This document shows positions 18,108 through 57,050 of a stretch of DNA of 64,000 nt, piece after piece. The DNA comes from Candidatus Kapaibacterium sp. (GTDB lineage Bacteria; Bacteroidota; Ignavibacteria; Kapaibacteriales; HRBIN21): contig JANXCT010000001.1 in assembly GCA_025059875.1 (NCBI GenBank), forward strand, positions 372,001 through 436,000. Reading direction: 5' to 3'. The notes beneath the pieces are model-generated. The model saw only the letters and a list, made by a program, of their open reading frames with translations, was not told where the DNA came from and did not search any database. Within the stretch, counting starts at the first letter, position 1; every line of letters starts with the position of its first letter. The translations under genes and the position numbers were made by a program.

Positions 18108-18875
18108 ATGCGGTGGAGCTTGAGTGTTGGGGTCTTAGTGGCAACTCTCTGGTTGGGGGGAAGCGAGGTGTGTGCGCAGACGATGTCGCTGCCCCCCATT
18201 CCGAAAATCAGCGTGGGCGTGGAGGAAGCGAATTCTCCGCAGGAACTCTCTCTCACCCTCCAGCTCTTAATCTTGTTGACGGTGTTGGCTCTGGCACCGT
18301 CTATCCTGGTGATGATGACCTGCTTCACCCGGATCATTGTGGTGTTCTTCTTTCTGAAGCAGGCCCTGGGGACACAGATGCAACCACCCAGCCAATTGCT
18401 GACAGGGCTTGCTCTCTTCTTAACCTTCTTCGTAATGCAGCCTGTGCTCGATGAAGCTAACGAGAAGGGGCTCCAGCCATACCTGCGGCAGGAGATTACT
18501 CAGCAGCAGGCGGTGGAGAACATGGTGCGCCCCTTTCGGGAGTACATGCTCAAGCGGGTGCGGCAGGAGGACTTAGCGCTCTTCTTGCGACTCAGTGGGG
18601 CGCGGCGCCCAAAGACTCCAGAGGAGGTGAGCATATGGGCACTTATCCCAGCCTTTGCGATTAGCGAGCTGCGAGTCGCGTTCCAGATCGGCTTTTTGCT
18701 CTTCCTGCCCTTCCTGGTCATCGATCTTATCGTTGCCAGCGTCCTGCTTTCGCTAGGGATTTTCCTACTACCCCCACAGCTGATTTCGTTGCCGGCCAAG
18801 GTGCTGTTGTTCGTGCTCGTGGATGGCTGGAACCTGTTGATTGGCTCGCTCTTGCAGGGGATACTCGCACCTTGA
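18108..18875 (+). CDS. fliP: Flagellar export-gate protein FliP
   Basis: 255 residues and intact. FliP forms, with FliQ and FliR, the helical entry gate of the flagellar type III export channel. A cleavable signal (MRWSLSVGVLVATLWLGG...) precedes four membrane segments, as known for FliP. Family segments visible are MMTCFTRIIVV, MQPPSQLLTGLALFLTFFVM and the C-terminal VLLFVLVDGWNLLIGSL. First gene of the fliP-Q-R-flhB-flhA cluster. No fliO, fliN, fliM or fliL precedes it. Confidence 0.95.
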   Translation: MRWSLSVGVLVATLWLGGSEVCAQTMSLPPIPKISVGVEEANSPQELSLTLQLLILLTVLALAPSILVMMTCFTRIIVVFFFLKQALGTQMQPPSQLLTGLALFLTFFVMQPVLDEANEKGLQPYLRQEITQQQAVENMVRPFREYMLKRVRQEDLALFLRLSGARRPKTPEEVSIWALIPAFAISELRVAFQIGFLLFLPFLVIDLIVASVLLSLGIFLLPPQLISLPAKVLLFVLVDGWNLLIGSLLQGILAP

Positions 18876-18890
18876 GTGGCGGGGATAGCC

Positions 18891-19157
18891 GTGAACGAGG
18901 AGATGGTGGTATACTTGGTCCGGGAAGCCTTCTTCCATACCCTCCTTGTGGCTGGGCCCCTGTTGTTCCTGGCATTGGTGGTGGGGCTGGTAATCGCAAT
19001 TCTGCAGGCAGCAACGACCATCTCTGAACAGACGCTCACCTTCGTACCGAAGCTCGTAGCCGTTATGATCGTAGGTGTCTTGCTGCTACCCTTCATGGTA
19101 GGGGCGATGAAGCGCTACCTTCTAGAGCTGTTCCGTCTCATCCCGACTCTGCGATAG
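18891..19157 (+). CDS. fliQ: Flagellar export-gate protein FliQ
   Basis: 88 residues from GTG 18891. That start gives the usual VNEEMVVYLVREAF N-terminus and has GGGGA at 18880-18884; a GTG at 18876 directly after the fliP stop is the alternative. Two membrane helices flank the conserved QAATTISEQTLTFVPKL loop. The frame is intact. FliQ packs four copies around the FliP/FliR core. Confidence 0.93.
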   Translation: MNEEMVVYLVREAFFHTLLVAGPLLFLALVVGLVIAILQAATTISEQTLTFVPKLVAVMIVGVLLLPFMVGAMKRYLLELFRLIPTLR

Positions 19158-19161
19158 TGCT

Positions 19162-19952
19162 ATGGTACTGGATGCAGCAGCGTTGGAAGAGACGATACGG
19201 GTTGTCATAGTAGGAGCGCTGTTGAGTATCCGGGCCGTTGGGGTACTCATAGTAGCCCCAGTCTTCAGCCACCCCGGGATTCCGGTGCTCGTTAAGGGGA
19301 TGCTGGCACTTGTGATTGCCGCTGCATTGGTGCCGAGCGTACCCCCACAGCCAACATTGGAGCTCCACCCTTGGGTCTTAGCGTTCCTCGCGTTTAAGGA
19401 GGCATTGGTTGGTCTCATGATTGGATTCCTCAGTTCAGGCGTGCTCTACGCTGCCCGCTTTGCCGGAGGGATGTTAGACTTGGATATCGGCTTCCAAACG
19501 GCTCTACTGTTCGATCCGGGATTGGGAGGCTTCCCGACCCTTATCGGAGAGTTCTTCGCCCTCACAACTCTGGTGCTCTTCTTCTGGCTAGATGGACACC
19601 AGGCGCTGTTGCTAGCTCTCAGGGAGAGTGTCCACCTGATTCCGCTGACAACCGTAGTTGTACCGACGACGGGAGAAGAGCTCATCCGCTGGGCAAGTTC
19701 TGTGACGGCTCTAGCACTGAGCCTTGCTGCACCGACGGTGGCGGCGCTCTTCGTCAGCATATGGGTATTGGCACTGCTGGGGCGAGGTCGGCACCACAGA
19801 TCAACATCTTCATGCTCAGCTTTTCGGTTAAAGCGCTGGTCGGGATTGGGATGCTCGGCTTGAGCACTCCACTGGTGGTGGTAGCACTGCGAAACGCTTT
19901 GAGTGAGCTCCAGCTACAGCTCTTCGCATTCGTGCGTGCTTTGTGGCCGTAG
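19162..19952 (+). pseudogene. fliR: Flagellar export-gate protein FliR, reading frame broken near 19775
   Basis: The first frame (19162-19863) matches FliR through VAALFVSIWVLALLGRG and then turns to unrelated residues until a stop at 19863. The conserved continuation SAPQINIFMLSFSVKALVG is encoded in another frame from about 19780 to the stop at 19952. Joining the two gives about 263 residues, the normal FliR length, ending ten bases before flhB. The break lies in GGGGCGAGGTCGG (about 19769-19781), where a net -1 (or +2) change is needed. No long homopolymer or classical slippery heptamer is present, so programmed slippage is not obvious. It is either a real frameshift mutation or an assembly error. 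If real, the last conserved helix is lost. Confidence 0.88.
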
Positions 19953-19961
19953 TGACTACTG

Positions 19962-21071
19962 ATGCCGGAGACTCCAGAAGGACAGCAGCGGACCGAACCG
20001 CCGACGCCAAAGCACCTTGAGGAGGCGCGGTTGCGAGGACAAGTCGCCAAGAGCGCAGATATGACGGCAACAGCGGTGCTGATAGGAGCACTACTCCTCT
20101 TTGCCGGTCTGCTACCTGGTGCCGTCCGCTCTTTCCAGGGCCTATTGGAACAATACCTGCAGTGGGGCGCCACTGTGCGGCTTGATGAGAGTAGCGCCTA
20201 TGCCCTCGCTTGGGACTTTATCGTTCGCACATTGCTGCTACTCCTACCGGCTATGGCTGTCGTCCTTGCTCTTGGCGTCGGGGCTGAGCTTGCCCAGGTA
20301 GGGGTGCGGTTTGCAACGAAGAAATTTCCGCAGGGGCTGCCGTTGCAGACGGTCTTCAATCCCCTCGTGGGGCTACGGCGGGTATTCCTTTCGGGGCGCT
20401 CGGCTGTTGAGCTGCTCAAGAGTGTGCTGAAGATTGCATTGGTGATTGGCATCGCTGCTCAGGTGCTCTGGGGCCGGTTAGAGGAGCTCATCCAACTTGC
20501 TGTACTTCCGTTGCCTCAGGCTGCTTCCGTGCTGTGGAACGTGGTGGTGGAAGCAACGGTGAAAATTGTCGCTGCTCTGCTGCTGTTGGCGTTAGGCGAT
20601 GTGCTCTATCAGCGGTATCGCTACCGTGAGGATCTTCGCATGACACGACAGGAGGTCCGGGATGAACTCAAGCAGACGGAAGGGGACCCACAGCTCAAGG
20701 CTCGTTTGCGAAGCTTGCTCCAACAGCGCTTACGGCGATGGCTGCTGCAGCGCGTACGACAAGCAGATGCGGTTATCACGAACCCTACCCACGTTGCTGT
20801 TGCTCTCCAGTATACGCCACAGAAGATGCGGGCCCCAATCGTTGTAGCGAAGGGTGCGAATCGGATTGCGGAGCAGATTCGCCAGATAGCACAGGAGGCA
20901 GGAGTGCCGATTATCGAACGACCTGCCTTGGCATGGAGTCTCTATCGGGGTGTAGAGGTGGATCAGGAGATCCCCGAACGCCTGTTCGCAGCCGTTGCAG
21001 AAGTGCTGGCGTACGTGTACCACGTGTACAATCGGGCCAAAGCATCCCAGATCTTGCAGAGTCGTAGATGA
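19962..21071 (+). CDS. flhB: Flagellar export switch protein FlhB
   Basis: 369 residues, intact. FlhB sits on the FliPQR gate and switches export from rod/hook to filament substrates. The N-terminus QQRTEPPTPKHLEEARLRGQ is typical, four membrane segments follow, and the C-terminal cytoplasmic domain keeps the autocleavage site Asn274-Pro275-Thr-His (VITNPTHVAVAL). The intact NPTH argues against long-standing decay of this gene. It overlaps the flhA start by ATGA. Confidence 0.95.
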   Translation: MPETPEGQQRTEPPTPKHLEEARLRGQVAKSADMTATAVLIGALLLFAGLLPGAVRSFQGLLEQYLQWGATVRLDESSAYALAWDFIVRTLLLLLPAMAVVLALGVGAELAQVGVRFATKKFPQGLPLQTVFNPLVGLRRVFLSGRSAVELLKSVLKIALVIGIAAQVLWGRLEELIQLAVLPLPQAASVLWNVVVEATVKIVAALLLLALGDVLYQRYRYREDLRMTRQEVRDELKQTEGDPQLKARLRSLLQQRLRRWLLQRVRQADAVITNPTHVAVALQYTPQKMRAPIVVAKGANRIAEQIRQIAQEAGVPIIERPALAWSLYRGVEVDQEIPERLFAAVAEVLAYVYHVYNRAKASQILQSRR

Positions 21072-23153
21072 CTGAGCTCCGGCTTCCAACAACGGGTTGG
21101 CTCCAACGCCTCCAGCGACAACCTGATATCGCTGTGGCTGTTGGAATCCTGGGGATTTTGACGTTGTTGCTCTTCCCGCTCCCGACCCCTCTACTGGATT
21201 TGCTGCTGGCTCTCAACATTACAGTGTCACTGCTCGTTCTACTGATAGCGGTCTACGTTCAGCATCCGTTGGAACTCAGCGTCTTCCCCAGCTTGCTGTT
21301 GATCACGACCCTCTTTCGTCTTGGGCTCAACGTTGCTACAACGCGGCTCATCTTAGGGCAGGCGGACGCAGGTGAAATCATCCGTGCTTTCGGCAGCTTC
21401 GTCGTTGCTGGGAACTACATCGTTGGCTTCATCATCTTCCTCATCCTGGTGCTTATCAACTTTGTGGTCATCGTCAAGGGGGCAAATCGAATCGCCGAGG
21501 TTGCAGCCCGCTTCACACTGGATGCTCTACTAGGGAAGCAGATGAGCATAGATGCCGAGCTCAACGCTGGCTTCATTACAGAGCAGGAGGCACGGCAACG
21601 GCGGGAACAGTTAGCGCGGGAAGCTGATTTCTACGGAGCAATGGACGGGGCGGCAAAGTTCATTCGAGGCGATGCCATTGCAGGTCTGGTCATCACGCTG
21701 GTCAACATTCTCGGGGGCCTCATCATTGGGATTGCACAGCGAGGGATGGAGGTTGTTACAGCACTCCAGACGTACACAGTGCTGACTATCGGCGATGGCC
21801 TCGTTGCCCAAATTCCTGCTCTCCTCATCTCCGTTGCCGCTGGTATGGTGGTTGCCCGCTCCTCCACACGTGACCGTCTGGAGAAAGAGCTCGGTCGGCA
21901 GTTCGGGCAGCAGCCGCGGGCAATCGCCATAGGAGCAGTTGCTGCGCTCCTCCTGGCACTGCTCCCTGGACTGCCATTCTTTCCCTTCGTGGTGCTAGCT
22001 GCTGGGTTAGGGACGATCTCCTACTTCCTGCTCCGTCGGGAGCGCCTGCTCGAGGAGCGTCGCCGTGCCGAAGAGGCGGCGCGTGCACGCATACCGGAGC
22101 GTCCGGCTGAGCCAAGCCCTGAGGAACTGTTGCGTGTGGACCCCGTAGAAATTGAACTCGGGTATGGGCTTCTCCCCCTCGTGGATGAGACGCGGGGGGG
22201 CAACTTGTTGCAGCGCATCACCAACGTGCGGCGCCAGTTAGCGGCAGAACTGGGCATCCTCCTCCCTCCAGTGCGGATCCGATCTCCGACTGGAACCCGA
22301 AGAGTACCTCATCCGGATTCGGGGCAATGAGGTGGCACGGGGGAAAGTCTTCCCCGGCATGGTGATGGCGATGAATCCAGGAACGGCCGAAGGGGAGCTC
22401 AAAGGGCTCCATGTCACAGAACCTGTCTTCGGGCTGCCTGCTGTGTGGATCCCTGCTGCCCAGCGGGAGCAGGCAGAACTGATGGGCTATACCGTCGTGG
22501 AAGCTGCTACGGTGCTGATCACCCACCTCACCGAGCTCCTCCGCCGAAATGCCTGGCGCCTGCTAACTCGACAAGATACGCGCCAACTCCTAGAGCAGCT
22601 TCGCCGGGATTACCCAGCACTCGTGGAGGAGGTGACTCCAGAGACGCTGCCTTTGGGAACCCTGCAACAGGTCCTGCAGAACCTTCTGCGCGAAGGCATT
22701 CCTATTCGGGATCTGCCCCTTATCGTAGAACCGGCGCTGGAACACAGCAAGGCGACCAAGAGTGCCGATGTGCTTACGGAGTATGTACGGCATGCTCTTG
22801 GTGAGACCATCCGACGGCTGTACCAAGATAGCAACGGTGTGGTACATGCCGTGACGCTTGCTCCCGAAGTCGAGCGGCTGCTGACAGTACAGCTACAGCA
22901 ATCACCGCAAGCTGCGGGATTGCCCACCTTGGGATTGGCTCCAGACGTTGTGCAACGCCTTCGGCAGGCTACTGGACAAGCACTGGAACAGCTCTTAACG
23001 CTCGGATATCCCCCCGTCCTCCTCGTCTCTACACCTTTACGTCCTTACGTTGCCCGTCTGTTAGGAACGACGTTTCCCATGCTGGCTGTTCTTAGCTACA
23101 CGGAACTTCCGCCAGACACCACCCTGGACATCATAACGTCGGTTCAGCCCTGA
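21068..23153 (+). pseudogene. flhA: Flagellar export protein FlhA, reading frame broken near 22280
   Basis: The first frame (21068-22330, 420 residues) covers the eight-helix membrane domain, including the FHIPEP-family stretch LFRLGLNVATTRLIL and KGANRIAEVAARFTLDA. It then runs into ELGILLPPVRIRSPTGTRR and stops. The expected continuation LRLEPEEYLIRIRGNEVARG is readable in another frame from about 22286 and continues to 23153 with the complete cytoplasmic domain (EPVFGLPAVWI, LIVEPALEHSK, LSYTELPP). Together they give about 695 residues, normal for FlhA. The break is at CGGATCCGATCTCCGACTG (about 22274-22292), needing a net +1 or -2 change; there is no homopolymer. The loss would fall inside the first cytoplasmic subdomain, removing the substrate-docking platform. 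Confidence 0.9.
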
Positions 23154-51674: not shown

Positions 51675-52301
51675 ATGAAGCGGCTCGTTGCTCTGCTGGT
51701 CGTTGCCGGAATGGCGGCAGTCAGTGCATCAGCACAGAAGACCAAACAAGGGGACAGAGCATGGCTGTTTACACTGAACGGTCTGTCAGTTCTGGGGGTC
51801 GGCGGTTACAACGGTGGGTTAGGGCTGTTGTACTACCTCAGCGATGACTTAGGTTTGACCGTGGGTCTGGGATTTGGAACTAAGAGCACAACAGAAAGAG
51901 CGCCGACCCAGGGAGGAGCAGATGAGAAGACTTCTGCACTGAACCTCACTCTTTCCCCGGGGATCCGCTTCAATCTTGCCTCAAGTGGCCCCGTTGTGGG
52001 GTATGCGGGTGTCGGTATATCATTTGGAATGGGGAGTGAGACGGTGGAGAATCGAGATCATCAAAGCGGACACAAAGTAGAAGCGTCAACGACTACGTTC
52101 GGTGCAGCGGTCACCGTGGGGGCTGAGTGGTTTGCGTGGAGCAACGTCTCTTTAGGTGCCAGCTACAGCCTGGGCTTCTCTACAAGCTCGGGAAAGCAGA
52201 AGGTAACGACTGGCGGCCAGACGACAGAAACGGATGCGCCCTCTGTGACCAACATTAGCACCGTTCCGTCTGGTTCCTTTACGCTTTCCATTTACTGGTA
52301 A
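51675..52301 (+). CDS. Outer-membrane beta-barrel protein, about 200 residues
   Basis: 208 residues. A clean signal peptide (MKRLVALLVVAGMAAVSASA-QK) is followed by Gly-rich alternating strands (GLGLLYYLSDDLGLTVGLGFG, TFGAAVTVGAEWFAW) and a terminal aromatic (SIYW), as in OmpW/OmpA-like eight-strand barrels. No OmpA peptidoglycan domain. No specific family or ligand is recognised. It has its own promoter and a strong terminator, so it is a single-gene transcript. Confidence 0.75.
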   Translation: MKRLVALLVVAGMAAVSASAQKTKQGDRAWLFTLNGLSVLGVGGYNGGLGLLYYLSDDLGLTVGLGFGTKSTTERAPTQGGADEKTSALNLTLSPGIRFNLASSGPVVGYAGVGISFGMGSETVENRDHQSGHKVEASTTTFGAAVTVGAEWFAWSNVSLGASYSLGFSTSSGKQKVTTGGQTTETDAPSVTNISTVPSGSFTLSIYW

Positions 52302-52325
52302 GCATGGTGCAAGCGCCCTGAATGA

Positions 52326-52364
52326 GAAACGCCCGTGCGCTTACACGCACGGGCGTTTCTTTTT
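52326..52364 (+). terminator. Strong intrinsic terminator
   Basis: A perfect 14-base stem GAAACGCCCGTGCG / CGCACGGGCGTTTC with a six-base loop, followed by TTTTT at 52360-52364. It ends the beta-barrel transcript (stop 52301). The tRNA-Phe 3' end is four bases away on the other strand; the minus-strand reading lacks a T-run. Confidence 0.93.
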
Positions 52365-52368
52365 AGGG

Positions 52369-52441
52369 TGGTCAGGGAGGGATTCGAACCCCCGACACGG
52401 GGATTTTCAGTCCCCTGCTCTACCACCTGAGCTACCTGACC
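52369..52441 (-). tRNA. tRNA-Phe (anticodon GAA)
   Basis: 73 bases. Acceptor GGTCAGG/CCTGACC, D-arm GCTC...GAGC, anticodon stem GGGGA/TCCCC with loop CTGAAAA (anticodon GAA), T-loop TTCGAAT, discriminator A. CCA is not encoded. Confidence 0.96.
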
Positions 52442-52458
52442 AGCCAGAGAGCTCACCA

Positions 52459-52466
52459 CAAAATTA
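52459..52466 (-). promoter_or_regulatory. Bacteroidota-type -7 element (TAATTTTG) before tRNA-Phe
   Basis: Minus-strand TAATTTTG lies 17 bases before the tRNA 5' end. The 10-mer TAATTTTGTG is identical to the elements before the TPP riboswitch (57257-57266) and, as TAATTTTGTG, before nuoD (63599-63608). Confidence 0.5.
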
Positions 52467-52490
52467 GCAAGTGCGCACGGTTTCAGCAGT

Positions 52491-54650
52491 ATGGTGCGCT
52501 TTCGCTGGGAGCAATGGCAAGCACTGCCGTGGGCGCTTCGACTGCGGAAGCTTCTCTGTAGGCCCTTCAGACAGCTTTCGAGGCAGTGGGGTCCTCGGTC
52601 CCTGGAGCTTGTCTGTGGACATGGTGTAAGGGCAACTCTTAGCCCTCTTTCGCGCTCTCCGCTGTCGGCGCGGCACGTTGAGCCCTTCCAGAGAGGGCTC
52701 TGGGAGTGGTGGGAACACTGGCGGCAAGGGGAGCTCTTACTCTTTCTCCCTTCATGGATCCGTCTCCCGCATGTAGAACAGCCAATGCGCTATCGAGAGG
52801 AAGGGAGGTCGGGTAGGAAATGGGTGGAAGAGGCTCTGAGCTTGCTGCCTGCAGCACATCAGTGGCTGGATTGGCAGTGTGATGTGTTCAGCGGATATCA
52901 GTGGGATGGTACCAGACCGTCGTGGGAGCTGTCGCTATGTCCGACAGGAGCTGACCCGAAGGTGCCATGGGAGCTCGGTCGGATGCAGTATTTGGTGTCA
53001 CTAGCGCTCTTAGCCCAGCTTACCGATGGGCCAACGGCAGAGCAGCTCCGAGACCACTTCCGCTCCACAGTGCTGGATTTCCTCGTGCAGAATCCGCCTG
53101 GATTCGGGATTCAGTGGGCATCGCCGTTGGAGGTGGCTCTCCGCGCAGTATCGTTGGTTGTAGCATGGACATTCTTCGAGCAGCAGGGGCTACTGGATGT
53201 CGCTTTCGGACGCGTGATGGCTCAGGGCCTGTGCGAGCATGGGTCCTTTCTGATGCATCATCTGGAATGGGGCGAGGGGCTACGAGGGAATCACTACGTG
53301 GGGAATCTAGTCGGGCTGCTGTGTTTGGGAGCCGCTTTGGACAATCTTCCGGTGGCTGATGCATGGCTGGCTTTTGGAATTCGAGAGCTGACCAGTGAAG
53401 TCTTACACCAATTCTTGCCGGACGGGGGGCACTTTGAAGGCTCTACGTACTATCACCGGTTCGTGCTGGAGATGGTGCTCCTCGGAACCCTTGTCGTGGT
53501 AGGGCTACCTACGGCTCGGCGGCAGCGACTCCAGCACTACGACCATCAGCTGTGGCGAGGCGAAAGGCCGTTGGCGCCGCCCCCAGTCCCGGCGTATCCA
53601 ATATCTACATCCGCAGCAGGATCGGTATCTCCGTTCCCGCAGGAGTACTGGGAACGATTGCGCGCGGCGATCCGCTTTGCTGCAGCCATAACGAACCGTA
53701 GCGGGCGGGCTCCTCAGATTGGCGACCACGACAGTGGACGCTGTGTCAAGCTCATTCCGCGGCTCGTTATGCTCTCCCAAGAGCAGGCAGAGACATACGA
53801 GCTCCCTACCGGACGACCGGTTGCGCAGCTAGCAGAGGACCATCGTGACATGCGACCGACGTTAAGCTTAGCGGCGGCGCTCTGCCGGTCCTACCCTAAG
53901 GAATGGTTGCAACAGCCGGAAGCGTGGTTGTTAGAGCCTTGCCCGCTGCTGGAGGTAGAGCCGCCTGGACCCGTGGAGGTCTTTCCCGATTTCGGTGTCG
54001 TGCTCTATCGCTGGGACGAGTTCTTCTTGGCTGTTCGCTGCGGGGGTATAGATCGGCTCCACCTGAGTGGTGGACATGCCCACTGCGATCAGTTGTCGTT
54101 TGAGCTGACCATCGGCAATTGTGAAGTCCTTGTGGACCCCGGAACCTACTGCTATACGGCCTCGCCGGAATGGCGGAACTGGTTTCGTGCAACAGGAGCG
54201 CACAACACGGTTGCTGTGCCTGGGGTAGAGCAGTTCCGGTTCTATGGACATACTCCGGAGGCTCTCTTCTGGCTCTTCCGACGCAAGGTGCAGGTACGGA
54301 TACTCTCTGTCAGCGCGCAGGAGTTTGTCGGAGAGTTCCTCCATCCGCTGTACCGGCATCGTCGCTGCTTGCAGATACTAGCCACGGGGATCGAAGGGGC
54401 GGACGTCTACGAGGGGCCGACCTCAGCAGTTGTCAACTTTCACTTGTCACCGGAGATCAGGGTTGTGCAGCATGGCTCCGAGGAGATGCTCTGGCATAGT
54501 CCAGTGGGTACCCTCCGCTTCTGGAGCACGGCTCCTGCGGAAGTATCTCCCAGCTTCTTCTCCCCAGGGTACTTGGTGCGGCAGCGTACTCACTGCGTGC
54601 GGCTTACCCTCGTGCCTGGTGAGGTCCGCTGGAGGCTGGAACTCCTGTGA
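52491..54650 (+). CDS. Heparinase II/III family protein
   Basis: 719 residues. The N-terminal alpha-toroid region (about 100-480) includes LRGNHYVGNLVGLLCLGAAL and FLPDGGHFEGSTYYHRFVLEM. The C-terminal beta-sandwich has SGGHAHCDQLSFELTIGNCE and DPGTYCYT, then RATGAHNTVAVPG, all hallmarks of Heparinase_II_III (PL12/15/17/21-like). In surface-polysaccharide loci such proteins often process uronate-containing glycans. No clear signal peptide is seen, so it may act in the cytoplasm or be a capsule-locus type member. The substrate is unknown. Convergent with the TonB receptor gene, 12 bases apart. Confidence 0.87.
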   Translation: MVRFRWEQWQALPWALRLRKLLCRPFRQLSRQWGPRSLELVCGHGVRATLSPLSRSPLSARHVEPFQRGLWEWWEHWRQGELLLFLPSWIRLPHVEQPMRYREEGRSGRKWVEEALSLLPAAHQWLDWQCDVFSGYQWDGTRPSWELSLCPTGADPKVPWELGRMQYLVSLALLAQLTDGPTAEQLRDHFRSTVLDFLVQNPPGFGIQWASPLEVALRAVSLVVAWTFFEQQGLLDVAFGRVMAQGLCEHGSFLMHHLEWGEGLRGNHYVGNLVGLLCLGAALDNLPVADAWLAFGIRELTSEVLHQFLPDGGHFEGSTYYHRFVLEMVLLGTLVVVGLPTARRQRLQHYDHQLWRGERPLAPPPVPAYPISTSAAGSVSPFPQEYWERLRAAIRFAAAITNRSGRAPQIGDHDSGRCVKLIPRLVMLSQEQAETYELPTGRPVAQLAEDHRDMRPTLSLAAALCRSYPKEWLQQPEAWLLEPCPLLEVEPPGPVEVFPDFGVVLYRWDEFFLAVRCGGIDRLHLSGGHAHCDQLSFELTIGNCEVLVDPGTYCYTASPEWRNWFRATGAHNTVAVPGVEQFRFYGHTPEALFWLFRRKVQVRILSVSAQEFVGEFLHPLYRHRRCLQILATGIEGADVYEGPTSAVVNFHLSPEIRVVQHGSEEMLWHSPVGTLRFWSTAPAEVSPSFFSPGYLVRQRTHCVRLTLVPGEVRWRLELL

Positions 54651-54662
54651 GAGGAGCTTACG

Positions 54663-57050
54663 CTAGAGCTCCAGGTCTGCTCCAAGAAAGATTAGGCGCT
54701 CCCCGCCTGGGAAGAAGTGGCGCCCCTCGGCGCCAGCAGCATAGAGGGCGTTGAAGAGGTTGGAGACCTGTAGGCGGAGAACGATCCCCTGGAGTCCCAG
54801 AACGTTCGAGAGTCGCCAGCGCACGTCTAAGTCGGCAACCGTGTAGGGGTCGACAACGTTGTCCCGGTAGTCGGCAATCGTTGGGTCCTGGGCAGCGTAT
54901 TCAGCCAGCTTCTCTCCAAAGCTGTCCGAATAGAACTTGCCCACATGCCGGACTGTGAGTTGGGCCTCGAGCTGACCAATCCGGTAACGGAGCACTCCAG
55001 AAGCAAGAACCTCGGGAAATCCCGCTACTGGATTTCCATTGAGCGAGAAGGCCTTTGTGCCGCTGTAGTAAGTATACTCCACAATGCGGTTGCGGCTTAG
55101 CGTTGCGGAGCCCCCAACGGTTATAGAGCTCCCATCCGGAAGCCGGAGGAGCTCTGCGAGGATTTCAATCTCCACTCCAATGTGGCGTGTCCGTGGTGCA
55201 TTCCCGTCAATCGGGACTCCGAAGACGTCGACGCGTCCACTCTTGACCAGCTCGTCGAAGAACTCCATCCAAAAGGCGTTGACAGAGGCAGCGAGACGCT
55301 CGGATCGGTAGCGCCACCCTAGCTCAATGTCCAGCATCCGCTCGGGCTTGATCAGTGGTTTAGAGAAGTCGTAACGAATGACGCCACCAACGGTGTCAGC
55401 CTCAAACAAGGGTCGGGCTCCGAAGTAGGAATCTTCGGCAGCGTAGAGATTCCGCATCCGTGGCTCGCGAGAAGTATACCCTACCATGCCGAAGGCTTCA
55501 TGCCCTGTGCCGAAGCGCCATAGGAGCCCGACGCGGGGGTTGAAGAAAGTGTAGCGCACGTCGAATAGGGTTCCAGTGCCCCTCACCGTATCGCCCGATC
55601 GGGTTAGGTACTGCGTAGGTCGGCCTCCGGCCCTCTCGTTGCGGATGCGGTAGCTGTGGTGGACGAGTTGCCCTTCGAGATTGAGCAGGAGCTGTGGGCG
55701 GAGTTCGTACTGTTCACGGGCGAATACGGAGAAGATGTCGCGAATGCCCTCGTAAGAGTAGATCTTATACTCGGGGTCGAAGTTCGTCGGCAGGAGTTCG
55801 GCGTACCGCACCTTACCCCAATGCACGGAGCGATGCAGTCGCACCTCGGCCCCAATCAGGAGCTCACCACCAGTGTGTCGCCATAGTAGTCGAGGGATCC
55901 ACCCACCGTGTCGGTTGCCCACAAATGCCCGAATGATGGCATTGCGCGGGTAGACGGTATCGGGGAGGTCCCAACCATACTCTCTGGTCAGCCGTAGCGT
56001 CCGAGCGTCAGCCCACGATCCATCGAAGTCAAAGAAGCCGTCACCGGTGTAGTAGAAGAGCACGGACTTCAGCTCCAAGTCGTCGGTGATGCGCCAGTCG
56101 TTGAGCAACTCGTAGTGTGGCTGGGAGAAGTTCTCCAGCTCGTTGGGACGGCGTTCTATGGCGAAAACGATTTGACGGTAGGTGCTATCGTATTGCCACC
56201 AGGCATAGTTCTTGCGGCGGAGTGTCAGGTCCTTGATGTGCTCCTTAGGAATGCCGTAGTACGTCAGCCCATCGGCTATGGGCCCACCGTAGATGTTGAT
56301 CTGCGTAGTGAGACGCTCGTCGAAGCGGGCCCCGCTGAGGAAGTAGCTGTTCAGCTCTGCCCAGCTCTGGTCCCGATAGCCCCAGGAGTTGATGCGGGCC
56401 ATGCGTCCATAGACGGCGTATTGCCCCTCAATGAGCCCAGAGGAGACTTCGAATGCGTAGCGCTGGATTGTAGGCTGGAACGTCGTCCGCCCGCCAGCAC
56501 CGAACTGCTGCCAGCCGTTGCCGATGCTGATGCGTACCAAGCGCCCTGTGAGAAAGTTGGAGGTGGTGATGTTGATGCTGCCTCCGATGGCAGCAGCACC
56601 GTAGTTCGTTACTCCAGCTCCACGCTGGACCTGAATGGAGCCAATACTGGCGGCCAGATCTGGGAGGTCAATCCAGTACACGTTGTGGTCCTCCGGGTCG
56701 TTCTGCGGCACCCCGTTGATGAGTACAGCAATCCGGCGTTGGTCGAATCCTCGCATAACAAGGGTGGAGTAGCCGATTTGGTTGCCGTTCTGGGACCATA
56801 CGAGCACGGACGGGAGTGTGTTGAGGAGGGTTGGGAGGTCTTGGGCCGTATACCGCTGGGCAAGTTCTGCTCGTGTAACCTCAGCGAACGGTACGGGGCT
56901 CCTCCCCACCTCAGCTCGGGTTGTGGTCACGGTTACGGCCGGTAGCTGGTACAAGCGGAGTGTGTCCTCTGGGTTCTCTGTTCTCTGCTGGGCATAAGCG
57001 AGGACTAAAGGGACGGAGAGAGCAAGAACACCTGCGGTGGACCGAACCAT
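54663..57050 (-). CDS. TonB-dependent receptor, candidate thiamin transporter
   Basis: 795 residues. Signal peptide (VLALSVPLVLAYA-QQ), plug domain with LPSVLVWSQNGNQIGYSTLVM, RIAVLINGVPQNDPEDHNVYW and VQRGAGVTNYGAAAIGGSI, then a 22-strand barrel. There is no carboxypeptidase-like N-terminal extension, so it is not SusC-type. GGAGG at 57058-57062 precedes ATG 57050. The leader carries a TPP riboswitch and a hairpin covering that ribosome-binding site, which strongly suggests uptake of thiamin or a thiamin precursor. No inner-membrane partner or thi gene is adjacent. Confidence 0.93.
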   Translation of the reverse strand: MVRSTAGVLALSVPLVLAYAQQRTENPEDTLRLYQLPAVTVTTTRAEVGRSPVPFAEVTRAELAQRYTAQDLPTLLNTLPSVLVWSQNGNQIGYSTLVMRGFDQRRIAVLINGVPQNDPEDHNVYWIDLPDLAASIGSIQVQRGAGVTNYGAAAIGGSINITTSNFLTGRLVRISIGNGWQQFGAGGRTTFQPTIQRYAFEVSSGLIEGQYAVYGRMARINSWGYRDQSWAELNSYFLSGARFDERLTTQINIYGGPIADGLTYYGIPKEHIKDLTLRRKNYAWWQYDSTYRQIVFAIERRPNELENFSQPHYELLNDWRITDDLELKSVLFYYTGDGFFDFDGSWADARTLRLTREYGWDLPDTVYPRNAIIRAFVGNRHGGWIPRLLWRHTGGELLIGAEVRLHRSVHWGKVRYAELLPTNFDPEYKIYSYEGIRDIFSVFAREQYELRPQLLLNLEGQLVHHSYRIRNERAGGRPTQYLTRSGDTVRGTGTLFDVRYTFFNPRVGLLWRFGTGHEAFGMVGYTSREPRMRNLYAAEDSYFGARPLFEADTVGGVIRYDFSKPLIKPERMLDIELGWRYRSERLAASVNAFWMEFFDELVKSGRVDVFGVPIDGNAPRTRHIGVEIEILAELLRLPDGSSITVGGSATLSRNRIVEYTYYSGTKAFSLNGNPVAGFPEVLASGVLRYRIGQLEAQLTVRHVGKFYSDSFGEKLAEYAAQDPTIADYRDNVVDPYTVADLDVRWRLSNVLGLQGIVLRLQVSNLFNALYAAGAEGRHFFPGGERLIFLGADLEL

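Follow-up and report, generated by a model that had tools for sequence, protein, structure and literature searches.

Why should the reading frame be broken in two genes of a flagellar export operon, fliR and flhA, within a stretch of DNA whose other genes read through? The operon lies in what we call the window, the whole 64,000-nucleotide stretch that was analysed (G000:C1:372001-436000), taken from a 1.97 Mb draft genome of Candidatus Kapaibacterium sp. in 33 contigs, 98% complete. The species is represented by this one genome, and five more species from its genus served as a sister set (G000-G005 being the six genomes of the genus). The gene order is fliP-fliQ-fliR-flhB-flhA, with one frame change each in fliR and flhA and the other three genes open, as follows.

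18108 to 18875, forward strand: fliP, open, ORF of 255 aa, 80-85% identity to the five congeners; a leftover of the flagellar export operon
18876 to 19157, forward strand: fliQ, open, ORF of 93 aa, 77-83% identity to the five congeners
19162 to 19952, forward strand: putative fliR pseudogene, piece 1 from 19162 to ~19785 and piece 2, in a different frame, from ~19785 to 19952; PF01311 in two pieces and two frames
19785 to 19788, forward strand: fliR frame break, net +2 against the five congeners, by alignment
19962 to 21071, forward strand: flhB, open, ORF of 369 aa, 64-74% identity to the five congeners
21068 to 23153, forward strand: putative flhA pseudogene, piece 1 from 21068 to ~22281 and piece 2, in a different frame, from ~22281 to 23153; PF00771 in two pieces and two frames
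22280 to 22284, forward strand: flhA frame break, net -5 against the five congeners, in the cytoplasmic part of the protein, by alignment

Alignment with the congeners confirmed the two frame breaks of the original prediction as one indel each, at ~19786 in fliR and ~22281 in flhA, and these are the sole frame-changing differences of the two genes. The sequence at both sites likewise bears out the claim that neither break lies in a homopolymer. When the frames were checked in relatives, both genes proved to be single open frames in 5/5 congeners. Here, the Pfam profiles are matched over their lengths and above the curated cut-offs, but the frame is not continuous: the two pieces of FliR cover positions 4-189 and 188-228 of the 230 in PF01311, and those of FlhA cover 1-379 and 378-656 of the 657 in PF00771. 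Searches of the genome with these two profiles found no second copy of fliR or of flhA. Joining the frames had been said to restore conserved residues and normal protein length, and for FlhA this holds only in part, since the Asp-Asn of VRIRDNLRLEPEEY, present in 5/5 congeners, has been lost through the flhA change and the joined frames do not give back the full protein. Across the order, FlhA is frame-broken in one of the 27 genomes with a FlhA match, namely this one; a split match in genome G025 was rejected as a second true break, its pieces sitting on two contig ends. Among named public genomes, a search returned nothing closer than distant matches, none above 61% identity.

To set these breaks against the rest of the genome, we aligned the genes of congener G001 to the compared stretches of this genome (a part of it, with the window included), which gave 143 orthologue pairs, and we looked individually at the pairs that had been flagged because they showed two frames or contained an internal stop. 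The mid-gene breaks left after inspection were those of fliR, flhA, fliM and flgE. Broken genes thus make up 4/11 of the retained flagellar genes compared with 0/~130 of the others (Fisher p ~2e-5), where ~130 is an approximate figure, the 143 pairs including a few that are flagellar or probably non-genes; with strictly filtered controls the comparison is 4/11 to 0/44 (p ~0.001). The window itself contributed 37 orthologue pairs, with true mid-gene breaks in fliR and flhA only, in agreement with the claim that the rest of it reads through.

A suspected non-flagellar break at window positions 52255-54665 was dismissed on inspection: ahead of the gene lies a conserved tRNA-like stretch that had been translated as if it were protein. 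This stretch (window ~52390-52460) is almost identical in a congener and precedes a 719-aa open frame at 52491; when translated, it mimics a conserved protein segment. Three more two-frame matches were rejected as over-extended query starts ahead of complete open frames, and the other flagged control stops were rejected because they lie near match ends, in over-extended starts that align poorly, or in frames that look antisense.

Damage to flagellar genes extends well beyond the window. By alignment, fliM carries two breaks (net -4 and -8) and flgE one (net -1); FliM is found by profile, its open frame being 169 aa long here compared with 330 or more elsewhere. Profile searches gave no match in this genome to flagellin (PF00669), which has 2-3 matches per congener in 5/5, or to FliG (PF01706), which has one per congener in 5/5, and the N-terminal domain of flagellar rod and hook proteins (Flg_bb_rod) has one match here compared with 5-6 in congeners. 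Mapping of G001 DNA, its genes named with Pfam, against this genome located four deletions.

Inside contig C1: fliI, fliH, fliG, fliF, fliE and a flgB/C-type rod gene deleted, ~7.9 kb in G001 reduced to 0.7 kb
Inside contig C7: flgF, flgG, flgA, flgH and flgI deleted, ~4.7 kb in G001 reduced to ~0.17 kb
Inside contig C1: flgK, flgL, motA and the next gene deleted, 6 kb in G001 reduced to 0.8 kb, with flgN still recognisable
Inside contig C10: fliD and fliS gone from the fliD-fliS-fliC segment, with fliC left as a remnant

All four sites are inside contigs and have aligned neighbours on either side; therefore gaps in the draft are not the cause. The breaks had been described as confined to export-gate genes, a description that does not survive this comparison: fliM and flgE are frame-broken too, fliC is a remnant riddled with stops, and fliE-fliI, flgF-flgI with flgA, flgK, flgL, fliD and fliS are missing from the sites where synteny would place them. 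That the breaks seemed restricted to the export gate came from viewing one window; damage that appears limited to a pair of genes there can be one corner of a genome-wide loss.

We conclude that this species has almost certainly lost its flagellum, and that fliR and flhA are pseudogenes among its decaying leftovers. We favour a lineage-specific loss with pseudogene decay because of the breaks themselves, the deletions with aligned flanks, the open copies in congeners and the clean control genes. The pattern is that of pseudogenes formed after the loss of a system, with open orthologues in relatives and an indel here, and with other parts of the system missing or broken. Recent loss of flagellar function, as originally proposed, is thus supported and in a stronger form, most of the flagellum being gone through large deletions elsewhere in the genome. 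The congeners have the complete set of flagellar genes, spread over several separate clusters, and the ancestor would have had it too. The likely order of events is one in which several of these clusters were deleted in this lineage, flagellin was worn down to a remnant, and the genes still present (fliPQR-flhBA, fliLMN and fliK-flgD-flgE) have been gathering frame-breaking indels, fliR and flhA being two of at least four broken genes; the breaks would have come after selection was relaxed on a useless flagellum. From this gene content we infer that cells of the species do not swim by flagella.

The same evidence bears on whether errors of assembly or sequencing made the frame breaks in a species that is in fact flagellated. 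The draft state of the genome, with its 33 contigs, speaks for such errors, but the net sizes of the breaks (+2, -5, -4, -8 and -1) and their positions outside homopolymers speak against them, as do the lack of mid-gene breaks in the ~130 control genes and the flagellar clusters missing within contigs between aligned flanks. We therefore regard this explanation as very improbable.

Another way to view the locus is through the genes that remain open, which include fliL, fliN and flgD as well as fliP, fliQ and flhB. These might be kept for some non-swimming role, with the apparatus partly reused and not simply decaying. In retained genes that total 9.9 kb and carry five breaks, the probability of fliP, fliQ and flhB all escaping is ~0.3, and their open frames are therefore no evidence for continued use. 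Open fliP, fliQ and flhB call for no special explanation, and we consider a retained role for the open leftovers extremely unlikely.

Programmed recoding, in which a ribosomal frame shift yields whole FliR and FlhA, had already been offered as a less likely explanation. Sequence is kept in the parts after the breaks, as recoding would have it. However, the splits are not conserved among relatives, where congeners are open at both sites: fliR is open in 5/5 of them and no examined relative has a true flhA break, so that the breaks belong to this genome only. No canonical slippery heptamer is seen by eye at either joint, the FlhA joint would be without two conserved residues, and much of the machine that the proteins would serve is missing, with rotor, MS-ring, rod and filament genes absent. 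Recoding can be given practically no credence. The original prediction also raised phase-variable or population-level inactivation. Flagellar genes are targets of phase variation in some other bacteria, but for this export gate such switching on and off has next to no chance of being correct, since neither break has the simple repeat tract of slipped-strand mispairing, multiple genes are broken at once and whole clusters are missing, and with MS-ring, rotor and filament genes absent no toggle could restore function.

How old, then, is the loss of the flagellum? Between these species synonymous sites have reached saturation (pS ~0.7), which makes dN/dS proper unusable, and we used nonsynonymous distances instead. 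For the gate genes, the ratio of the distance to congeners over the distance among congeners was 0.90-1.20, that is, hardly accelerated, with flhA at 1.03 before its break and 1.20 after it. When three species were compared, the values for flgE and flgD exceeded the 90% quantile of 44 controls and fliM was on the high side; flagellar genes as a group did not differ from controls in rate of amino-acid change (p 0.70). Since the gate genes show scarcely any acceleration, the loss was probably recent relative to the split of the species. The near-ordinary gate rates and the six genes that are still open fit a recent loss without proving it.

Loss of the bacterial flagellum is frequent and partial gene sets occur, as a survey of 11,365 genomes found, with a missing filament gene the best sign of lost motility (PMC12199754). 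The present genome likewise holds a partial set, without a flagellin match; unlike presence/absence counts, however, it lets one compare deletion sites, remnants and frame breaks directly with five sister species that are flagellated. Lysobacter enzymogenes is similarly a non-flagellated species with many leftover flagellar genes and flagellated relatives (PMC9927559). Putting some lost genes back into L. enzymogenes weakened its antifungal activity (PMC9927559), a link that belongs to that system, with none seen here. A study across a phylum also traced how flagellar gene sets were lost repeatedly, and recorded flagellar pseudogenes (PMC10746217); our case shares the gene loss with pseudogenes, and differs in concerning one species within a genus. 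It is thus one more instance, and a well-preserved one, of an evolutionary process that is known and common. Its value is as a clear and apparently young loss with readable intermediates (deletion sites, remnants and first frame breaks) beside flagellated sisters, useful for establishing in what sequence a large machine falls into decay.

Three further observations concern the wider group and the surroundings of the leftovers. FlhA is absent in 14 of the 41 genomes of the order that were searched (6/6 of family f2, 5/5 of f7 and 3/5 of f9), which suggests that the flagellum has been lost repeatedly within the order. A CheW match (PF01584) is lacking in all six genomes of the genus, so that this species and its congeners are alike in this respect; the five congeners have flagellin, FliG and FlhA yet no match to PF01584, and are apparently flagellated species without canonical CheW-based chemotaxis. 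Lastly, the gene adjoining flgE (L119:11022-12449, in G000:C1) is open here, and its counterpart in a congener (L122:11064-12377) matches PF17116, a plug domain of the type 9 secretion system; the species may thus possess a further surface-related system.
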